From NCBI GenBank assembly GCA_040752815.1, contig JBFMGC010000021.1:1-45791 (forward strand): a stretch of 45,791 nt of DNA, given 5' to 3'. The position numbers were made by a program, and so were the translations under genes. The notes beneath the pieces are model-generated. The model was not told the origin of the DNA. It made no database searches and saw only the letters and a program-made list of their open reading frames with translations. This DNA is from Candidatus Zixiibacteriota bacterium (GTDB taxonomy: Bacteria; Zixibacteria; MSB-5A5; GN15; FEB-12). Below are positions 4,378 through 10,209 of this stretch, piece after piece (position 1 is the stretch's first letter; each line of letters opens with the position of its first letter).

Positions 4378-4567
4378 CCGTTTTGGAGTCCGCCGGCCGC
4401 CAATCTGTGGCGCCTATTTCCTGGGTGGTTGACATCGGTGCGGTCCGGGGTTATTCTCCGTTAAAGTAAACTCGATTCCGGTTCGGATACGGAACCACCG
4501 CTCCCCCCTGCCCCTCTCGCCACGGAGGTTGGGTTCTCGAACTCCGAAGCCTCGACAAAGGTAGTGA

Positions 4568-5959
4568 TTGAGAATGGGCGATAAACTGATAACAGTAGTT
4601 ATTCCAACTCTGAACGAGGAAGAGACCATCGCCAGCGTGGTCGGCATGGCCGCACGGTCGCCGTCGGTTCTCGAGGTGCTCGTGATCGACGACAAATCGG
4701 TGGACCGCACGGTGCCCAATGCCAGGGAGGCCGGCGCGACGGTAATCACCAGCACCAAACTCGGAAAGGGTGCTTCCATGCGAGACGGTCTCCTGGTAGC
4801 CAAAGGTGAAGTACTGGTTTTCCTTGACGGAGATATTGGCGACTATTCCGACGACATAGTCGAGCGGCTCGCCGAGCCGATTCTCACCGGCCGGGCCGCT
4901 TTCGTCAAGTCCCGTTTCACGCGGCAAGCCGGACGTGTGACCGAACTTGTCGCCCGGCCGCTTCTGTCGCTGCTGTTCCCCGATCTGCTTCACATCCGTC
5001 AGCCACTCAGCGGTATGATCTCGGCCAGGAAGTCACTCCTTGCGGGCATCAATTTCGAGGAGGACTACGGAGTAGATATCGGCTTACTCATAGACATGCA
5101 CTTGCAGAGAGCTGTGATCGAGGAGGTGGACATTCAATATATCACTAACCGGATGAAACCCTGGCCGGAGCTGGGCAAGATGTCGCGCGAAGTGGCCCGC
5201 GCAATTCTCAAGCGCGCGTCGGCCTCGCACTATCTGCACCTCGAGGACATGCAGAGCATAAACGTCATCCGGGACCAGATGGAGCATGCCATCCAGGAGT
5301 CGCTGCTCACGCTCAAGAAACTGGCCGTTTTCGATATGGACAATACCATCCTCCGCGGCCGCTTTGTCGAAACCGCGGCCAAGCGGTTTGGAATGGAGAG
5401 GGAATTGATCGAAATCCTTGCGGCCAACCACGAACCCTGGCTCAGAACCAAGCAGATCGCCCGCCTGTTCCGTGGCCGGAATATTGGCGAGCTGATTGAG
5501 ATAGTTGACAGCATCCCGTACACCCCGAATTCGTCGGAAATTGTCGCCGCAATGAAAAGTCGGGGCTATATCGTGGGAATCATCAGCGACAGCTACGATT
5601 TCGCCGCCAACCACGTCAAGACGAAGATCGGCGCCGATTTTGCCCTGGCCAACGAACTGGAATTCTCTCAGAGTATGGCCACCGGCGAAGTCAAGATACC
5701 GTCATTTTTCGCTCGGTCCGCCGCGAGCATATGCAGCCACAGTGTGTGCAAAACCCACGCTCTGGTCGACATCACCGCGCGCTACGAAGTGGGACTGTCA
5801 GACGTCATCGCGATCGGCGACAGCGAACCCGATGTGTGTATGATAAAGCACGCCGGTATTGGCGTATCATTCTGCTCCCGCAACGAGCTGCTGAACGCCG
5901 TGGCTGATTTCAGAATAAGCGAACCGAGTTTCAAGGGGCTGCTCGACGTTGCGCAGTAA
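4568..5959 (+). CDS. GT81-like glucosyl-3-phosphoglycerate synthase fused to a HAD phosphatase
   Basis: A 463-residue two-domain protein. Residues about 8-225 resemble GT81 glucosyl-3-phosphoglycerate synthase (GpgS). They include VVIPTLNEEET (10-20), the GKGASMRDGL segment (66-75), a DGD metal-binding triad (87-89), GRVTELVARPL (122-131), QPLSG (145-149) and YGVDIGLLID (167-176). Residues about 250-455 are a SerB-type HAD phosphatase: DMDNT (256-260), SDS (340-342), Lys395 and GDSEPD (417-422). If the match holds, domain one would join a sugar from an NDP-sugar to 3-phosphoglycerate and domain two would remove the phosphate, giving a compatible solute such as glucosylglycerate. Other glycosyl transfer reactions remain possible. 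TTG 4568 has AAAGG six bases upstream; ATG 4574 is the alternative start. No neighbours share the pathway. Confidence 0.82.
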   Translation: MRMGDKLITVVIPTLNEEETIASVVGMAARSPSVLEVLVIDDKSVDRTVPNAREAGATVITSTKLGKGASMRDGLLVAKGEVLVFLDGDIGDYSDDIVERLAEPILTGRAAFVKSRFTRQAGRVTELVARPLLSLLFPDLLHIRQPLSGMISARKSLLAGINFEEDYGVDIGLLIDMHLQRAVIEEVDIQYITNRMKPWPELGKMSREVARAILKRASASHYLHLEDMQSINVIRDQMEHAIQESLLTLKKLAVFDMDNTILRGRFVETAAKRFGMERELIEILAANHEPWLRTKQIARLFRGRNIGELIEIVDSIPYTPNSSEIVAAMKSRGYIVGIISDSYDFAANHVKTKIGADFALANELEFSQSMATGEVKIPSFFARSAASICSHSVCKTHALVDITARYEVGLSDVIAIGDSEPDVCMIKHAGIGVSFCSRNELLNAVADFRISEPSFKGLLDVAQ

Positions 5960-9710: not shown

Positions 9711-10099
9711 CTACGAGTGTGTTGTCCTGACACCAAAGCACCCGGGATCTCGCCAAATCGTCTCCAAGAACGTCTGGATGAGCCTTGTCAACCCCAAATA
9801 AGCTTGTAATAGGCGTCGCCTCGCCCGGCGGACAATCGGACCCCAGCCCGGGAACCGGGCCGCCAACTTCCTGATGTTGTGAGCCAGACAGATCAACTGA
9901 AACTCACCAGCTACTTTCGCCAGAGTCCGCAGATGAAACCGATCAAACCCCAAATTGAACTTTATGTTTCCGAACACCGGCTCCACCAAGTGGTTGCGCC
10001 GCGCATAGCCTTGTTGACCTTCCGCGCTGGACGATTTCTCCCGCATCTGCTGCTCCAGACGGGCCACCCCTGAAATGTACAACTCCCGCGCAACTCCCC
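9711..10099 (-). pseudogene. C-terminal remnant of an IS1182-like transposase
   Basis: About 125 open codons encode the end of a DDE transposase. The segment with ARRNHLVEPVFGNIKFN, GFDRFHLR and GEFQLICLAHNIRKL corresponds to the C-terminal catalytic Glu region of IS1182/IS5-like transposases (Y.RR..VE..FG..K pattern). The N-terminal two thirds, including the first catalytic Asp residues, are missing; the reading frame upstream runs into the direct repeat at 10100. No terminal inverted repeats of the element are evident. This is a decayed insertion, not a working gene. Confidence 0.8.
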
Positions 10100-10209
10100 T
10101 GGTAGCAACTGGTAGCCCACAGCTTGCTGTGGGTCGTTCGACTTGGCAACTGTCAACATAGTTCATGCCACCGATCACTGACTACAAGGGGCACACGAGG
10201 ACGTGTGCC
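10100..10209 (+). repeat. long direct repeat, right copy (family E)
   Basis: The second copy of the repeat at 9571-9682. Its end forms a perfect GGCACACG-AGGA-CGTGTGCC hairpin (10190-10209), eight bases past the stop of fba, which may serve as an fba transcription barrier although no T-run follows. Confidence 0.8.

Follow-up and report, generated by a model that had tools for sequence, protein, structure and literature searches.

The fusion gene and its parts

The window analysed here is a stretch of 45,791 nucleotides from a Zixibacteria genome (contig JBFMGC010000021.1), and it holds a single intact gene in which a glycosyltransferase domain of GT81 type is joined to a phosphatase domain of the HAD-IB class. 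The features of this gene are listed below; residue numbers are counted from the Met at 4574.

4557..4561, plus strand: AAAGG, a possible ribosome-binding site 12 nt before the ATG (read directly from the sequence)
4574..5959, plus strand: gene for the fused GT81-type glycosyltransferase / HAD-IB phosphatase, ATG start, 461 aa (open reading frame, profile search, alignment)
4586..5218, plus strand: GT-A domain of GpgS/GT81 type, residues 5-215, with motifs K65, DxD 85-87, GRVTE 120-124, QPLSG 143-147 and YGVD 165-168 (NF010496, GpgS in the PDB, Foldseek 1e-20, invariant catalytic residues)
5219..5314, plus strand: helical linker, residues 216-247, the region of lowest conservation (pairwise identity, low model confidence)
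5315..5947, plus strand: HAD-IB phosphatase domain of SerB fold, residues 248-458, with four motifs (TIGR01488, AlphaFold, Foldseek)
5732..5752, plus strand: invariant C-x-H-x-x-C-K insertion, comprising C387, H389, C392 and the motif III lysine K393 (alignments of 11 copies and 6 SerB proteins)

The initial annotation listed the open reading frame as 4568-5959 on the plus strand, encoding 463 aa from a TTG start. The frame itself stands, but the start probably does not: a second in-frame codon, the ATG at 4574, has AAAGG ahead of it and is the likelier one. All of the sequence blocks named in that annotation were recovered in the N-terminal half (RVTELVARPL, QPLSG and YGVDIGLLID), and the C-terminal half contains the four HAD motifs as DMDNT, SD, K and GDSxxD. 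In an AlphaFold model of the whole protein (pTM 0.53), the linker is of low confidence, and the spatial arrangement of the two domains is not confidently predicted either. Two antisense reading frames that overlap the gene (4451-4993 and 5084-5614) found no support. Elsewhere in the window, positions 9711-10178 on the minus strand encode a DDE transposase (PF13751) of 155 aa that is apparently a remnant.

Recurrence and spread

Does the fusion exist outside this contig, or is it an accident? The two-part protein is found at full length in ten genomes including the window, with 47-76% identity between copies. Because nine other genomes carry it in full, it is neither a chance reading frame nor an artefact of assembly, and both of these explanations were ruled out. 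The hosts belong to six lineages (Zixibacteria, Ignavibacteria, Schekmanbacteria, KSB1, Glassbacteria, and Bacteroidales), and the distribution is sporadic, at about 1% of the genomes searched. In the phylum of the window, the fusion is carried by three of 132 genomes: the window genome, a class-level relative with a full-length copy (G120, Zixibacteria MAG contig PFXJ01000077.1), and a third genome in which the gene is cut by the contig end (G112).

When 85,000 genomes were scanned on the basis of an alignment, full-length copies turned up in Ignavibacteriales, Schekmanbacteria, KSB1, Glassbacteria, and two Bacteroidales records, whereas a scan of genome contigs with a single sequence returned none. 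Since the 85,000-genome scan used only two short peptide patterns, the number of copies from it is a lower bound. Wider sampling added one copy among 294 genomes of the Ignavibacteria class and one among 393 Bacteroidales genomes; beyond the copy already known, there were no others in KSB1 (39 genomes), the Glassbacteria phylum (200 genomes), or the Schekmanbacteria phylum (four genomes). Viral contigs held no relatives of the fusion and plasmids no full-length relative. In the KSB1 copy (L038:5995-7437), 23 extra residues follow the position equivalent to residue 31 of the window protein, within the glycosyltransferase half.

Relatedness of the hosts does not predict the identity between copies. 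L034, from Zixibacteria, matches L039, from Glassbacteria, at 76% identity and the window protein at 56%, while the Ignavibacteria copy L033 shares 72% identity with the Schekmanbacteria copy L035 and 50% with the other Ignavibacteria copy, L048. Horizontal transfer is the simplest reading of this pattern, which is drawn from identities rather than from a tree and is open to errors in the binning of MAGs. The linker is the least alike, with a mean pairwise identity of 42%, against 61% for the glycosyltransferase half and 55% for the HAD half. In the closer pairs dN is 0.15-0.22, and a single comparison gives an unsaturated dS (2.7); low dN combined with saturation of dS in nearly all pairs indicates strong purifying selection on both halves.

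The glycosyltransferase half

The best NCBIfam model for the N-terminal half is glucosyl-3-phosphoglycerate synthase (NF010496), which matches residues 4-226 with an E-value of 3.7e-54. The score of 183.9 bits is below the curated equivalog cut-off of 262, and therefore the domain is not an orthologue of GpgS in the sense used by NCBI. In a search of PDB sequences, the best match is the mycobacterial (Mycobacterium tuberculosis) GpgS at 3e-28. The glycosyltransferase domain of the whole-protein AlphaFold model is confident, and its closest folds are GpgS (1e-20), MpgS of Rubrobacter xylanophilus (1e-16), and MgS of Rhodothermus marinus (about 1e-12). Thus, the ranking runs from GpgS to R. xylanophilus MpgS and then, by fold, to MgS, all of which are characterised enzymes that transfer sugar to glycerate or phosphoglycerate. 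A generic GT2 or dolichyl-phosphate transferase was considered as an alternative identity and rejected on its far lower scores, both in profile searches (GpgS 4e-54, against 1.6e-21 for AglJ and 3e-10 for the haloarchaeal DPhHxTase) and in the PDB (GpgS 3e-28, against 1e-9 for Dol-P-Man synthase). The GT81-like assignment made initially was thereby upheld.

Are the residues that bind the substrates of GpgS retained? Nine residues of the M. tuberculosis enzyme are invariant in all ten copies: Glu54, Lys114, Asp134, Asp136, Gly184, Arg185, Thr187, Tyr229, and Met269; Val186 is kept except for one Ile. In GpgS, Glu54 holds the nucleotide ribose, Asp134 pairs with Lys114, Asp136 binds the metal, the stretch of Gly184, Arg185, Val186, and Thr187 holds the carboxylate and phosphate of the acceptor, and Tyr229 and Met269 line the sugar pocket (PMC2581804; PMC7185993). 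A pocket for 3-phosphoglycerate, as presumed in the initial annotation, is supported by the acceptor residues in ten of ten copies, and the family is, judging from these alignments, GpgS-like in acceptor handling.

The sugar and metal sides of the site have changed. Glu212 of GpgS is replaced by Met or Ile and Tyr213 by Ile in all copies; in GpgS, both belong to a hydrogen-bonded PLSGE loop that has been proposed to exclude mannose (PMC2581804). Because these glucose-discriminating residues are absent, the donor could be either glucose or mannose, with glucose somewhat likelier. The metal-side His258 is His in four of the ten copies and Asn in the remaining six, including the window; other GT-A families can lose the C-terminal metal-side His (PMC7185993). 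Asn260 is replaced by Met or Ser, and Glu232 is Asp in all copies. The position equivalent to Glu232 is also Asp (Asp192) in the mannose enzyme MgS (PMC2581804).

This last substitution bears on the order of the two reactions. If the HAD domain first made D-glycerate from 3-phosphoglycerate, the transferase might glycosylate glycerate directly, in the manner of Rhodothermus MgS (GT78); the presence of MgS among the structural matches, the Asp shared with it, and the change at Asn260 would fit such a scheme. However, none of the residues that hold the acceptor phosphate (G184, R185, and T187) varies, and GpgS is a much closer match in sequence than MgS, which makes the reversed order quite improbable.

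The phosphatase half

The SerB model TIGR00338 is the best NCBIfam match to the C-terminal half (residues 241-458, E-value 4.9e-29), at 101 bits and below its cut-off of 144; the HAD-IB subfamily model TIGR01488 matches with 60.6 bits, over its cut-off of 45. The best PDB sequence is the phosphoserine phosphatase of Methanocaldococcus jannaschii (MjPSP, 7e-22). An AlphaFold model of the HAD half built from 17 sequences has a pLDDT of 95.6 and a pTM of 0.91, and Foldseek matches it to MjPSP (8e-20, TM 0.81-0.84) as well as to other SerB structures. The four HAD motifs are present and invariant, together with a helical C1 cap, and the model fits the folds of phosphoserine phosphatases. The catalytic residues Asp11, Asp13, Thr15, Lys144, Asp167, and Asp171 (PSP numbering) are invariant in ten of ten copies, and no HAD activity residue has been lost in any homologue.

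Which phosphate ester does this domain act on? In phosphoserine phosphatase, Glu20 holds the amino group of serine (PMC6321591). All ten copies of the fusion have Arg or Ser at this position, and Arg56 is not conserved. With these serine-binding residues replaced, a plain SerB was rejected as the identity of the HAD half; of the SerB-type domain proposed in the initial annotation, the fold holds while SerB orthology does not. The loss of Glu20 and Arg56 is as expected if the substrate were a phosphorylated compound that has no amino group.

It could still be argued that the HAD half is the missing phosphoserine phosphatase of the organism, joined to a glycosyltransferase by chance or for regulation, and that its real task is serine synthesis. 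SerB is after all its best match by profile and by fold, and it is the sole SerB-like match in the window genome. Against this, the two specificity residues have been replaced throughout the family, and both the fusion and a SerB match are absent from most relatives in the phylum, including a genome of the same genus. Among 61 related Zixibacteria genomes, nine have SerB matches at 1e-8 and none has a match over the cut-off. Another phosphoserine phosphatase would therefore have to serve these relatives, a role in serine synthesis does not explain the fusion, and this reading is highly improbable. As a separate observation, nearly all Zixibacteria of the window's family are devoid of a recognisable SerB, so they either lack a phosphoserine phosphatase or have one of a different kind.

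An insertion of ten residues just before motif III carries the CxHxxCK element, which is invariant in 11 of 11 copies and absent from the six SerB proteins aligned. The Pfam family Put_Phosphatase also matches the fusion protein (9e-10). Phosphatases of the PHOSPHO type have a Cys-rich element ahead of the same motif III lysine, which offers a lead, and the CxHxxCK element is possibly metal- or redox-binding. One sequence, L049, has an N-terminal extension ahead of the HAD domain.

Gene neighbourhoods

The neighbours of the fusion in the window are a CMD-family gene and a beta-helix protein gene upstream on the other strand, and TPM and LemA genes downstream; they are uninformative on osmolytes. 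Other copies have more telling surroundings. In G268, a gap of 43 bp separates the fusion from a downstream DUF389 gene, and one of 1 bp separates that gene from a Na+/H+ exchanger gene, with all three on one strand; the exchanger is the only PF00999 protein of that genome. A PF00999 exchanger is also the next gene to the fusion in G781. A CitMHS_2 gene, whose product commonly bears the annotation sodium:proton antiporter, lies near the fusion in L033 and L035, the latter having an MscS channel gene nearby as well. The fusion in L036 is preceded, at a distance of 9 bp, by a DUF389 gene. In L037, L038, and L039 the neighbours are unrelated genes. The YitT/DUF2179 gene beside the fusion in L033 (7620-8596) is split into two frames, by a frameshift or an assembly error.

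DUF389 occurs in only two of the ten fusion genomes, as one copy each, and both genes adjoin the fusion, one upstream and one downstream (L036:4639-5991 and L056:4827-6101). The chance of both adjacencies is less than one in a million, a rough estimate that assumes two neighbour slots and about 3,500 genes per genome. It is possible that this membrane protein is a functional partner of the fusion.

The same reactions might serve another end, with the product feeding into or priming the synthesis of a polysaccharide or glycolipid. Mycobacterial GpgS offers a precedent, since it serves the methylglucose lipopolysaccharide pathway via glucosylglycerate (PMC2581804). In five of the ten neighbourhoods, however, the genes found encode ion exchangers, the antiporter-like protein, MscS, or DUF389 proteins, and not polysaccharide functions, so a precursor role is improbable. 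The recurrence of these genes beside several copies favours a role of the fusion in osmotic or ionic stress.

Proposed function

Taken together, the fusion is probably (at roughly 0.7) a bifunctional hexosyl-3-phosphoglycerate synthase/phosphatase whose product, a hexosylglycerate, would serve as a compatible solute. The GT81-type domain would transfer hexose from an NDP-sugar to the 2-OH of D-3-phosphoglycerate with retention, the HAD-IB domain would remove the phosphate via a phospho-aspartate on D254, and glucosyl- or mannosylglycerate would be released as the compatible solute. A single protein would thus convert NDP-hexose and 3-phosphoglycerate to hexosyl-3-phosphoglycerate and then to hexosylglycerate. 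We infer the substrates, the order of the steps, the role as an osmolyte, and any inter-domain channelling from what is observed of domain identity, residues, fold, recurrence, and gene context. Both missed equivalog cut-offs, the replacement of His258 by Asn in six of ten copies, and the change at Asn260 count against this assignment.

A broader proposal combines a one-gene hexosylglycerate osmolyte route that has spread horizontally, a HAD-IB enzyme turned into a hexosyl-3-phosphoglycerate phosphatase, a CxHxxCK element (possibly metal- or redox-binding) beside the active site, and DUF389 partners; for this whole, the odds appear evenly balanced. To our knowledge, the HAD-IB class of phosphatases is not known for the hexosyl-3-phosphoglycerate step. 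A search of openly available papers turned up no description of a GT81-type domain paired with a HAD-IB domain, and on this basis the pairing is provisionally undescribed.

If the proposed function is correct, the fusion would be a further, independently assembled synthase/phosphatase for sugar-glycerate osmolytes and would add one more phosphatase family to the dephosphorylation of hexosyl-3-phosphoglycerate. Uncultured lineages, in which little is known of compatible solutes, would gain a single gene that can be tested for osmolyte production. The fusion would also be a candidate biocatalyst for making glucosyl- or mannosylglycerate with one enzyme, and it would offer a lead to the function of DUF389 proteins.

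Comparison with known systems

The N-terminal half is closest in sequence and fold to the GT81 enzyme GpgS (M. tuberculosis, 3e25 and 4y6n; M. hassiacum, 7p5l). The Lys of the GKG block, the DxD, GRVTE, and YGV(D) blocks, and Met269 are invariant in the fusion, and QPLSG is nearly so. It differs from GpgS at Glu212/Tyr213 (Met or Ile/Ile), Glu232 (Asp), and His258 (His or Asn), and the C-terminal part of GpgS is replaced by the linker and the HAD domain. Next comes R. xylanophilus MpgS (GT81; 3f1y; 4e-32 by sequence profile and 1e-16 by fold), a stand-alone enzyme that is less similar than GpgS.

The C-terminal half is closest in fold and profile to phosphoserine phosphatase (HAD-IB; M. jannaschii 1f5s), with which it shares all catalytic residues; it is set apart by the changes at Glu20 (Arg or Ser) and Arg56 (not conserved) and by the ten-residue CxHxxCK insertion before motif III. 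A domain of this type has been joined to another enzyme in the algae Dunaliella and Chlamydomonas, where glycerol-3-phosphate dehydrogenase is fused to a PSP-type HAD domain and the osmolyte is glycerol (PMC7468427). The structure of this bidomain enzyme (6iuy) was recovered in the fold search with the model of the HAD half. In both proteins, a PSP-type HAD domain is joined to the enzyme that acts one step earlier in osmolyte synthesis (for the fusion, a predicted pathway), but the algal partner domain is unrelated, and the enzyme is eukaryotic with glycerol as its product.

A parallel in organisation is MgsD of Dehalococcoides mccartyi, a bifunctional mannosyl-3-phosphoglycerate synthase/phosphatase that provides a one-protein route to mannosylglycerate (PMC8490865). 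The fusion likewise has a putative synthase and phosphatase in one polypeptide, in ten full-length copies. The halves of MgsD belong to GT55 and to the HAD-IIB family of MpgP. Those of the fusion are instead of GT81 type and HAD-IB, a comparison made at the level of domain families; models for MpgS (GT55) and MpgP are not among the 25 best NCBIfam matches of the fusion protein. Because both halves belong to other families, with GpgS and SerB/HAD-IB as their best matches, the fusion is not a member of the MgsD family, in agreement with the original remark that the known bifunctional case is built from different domain families.
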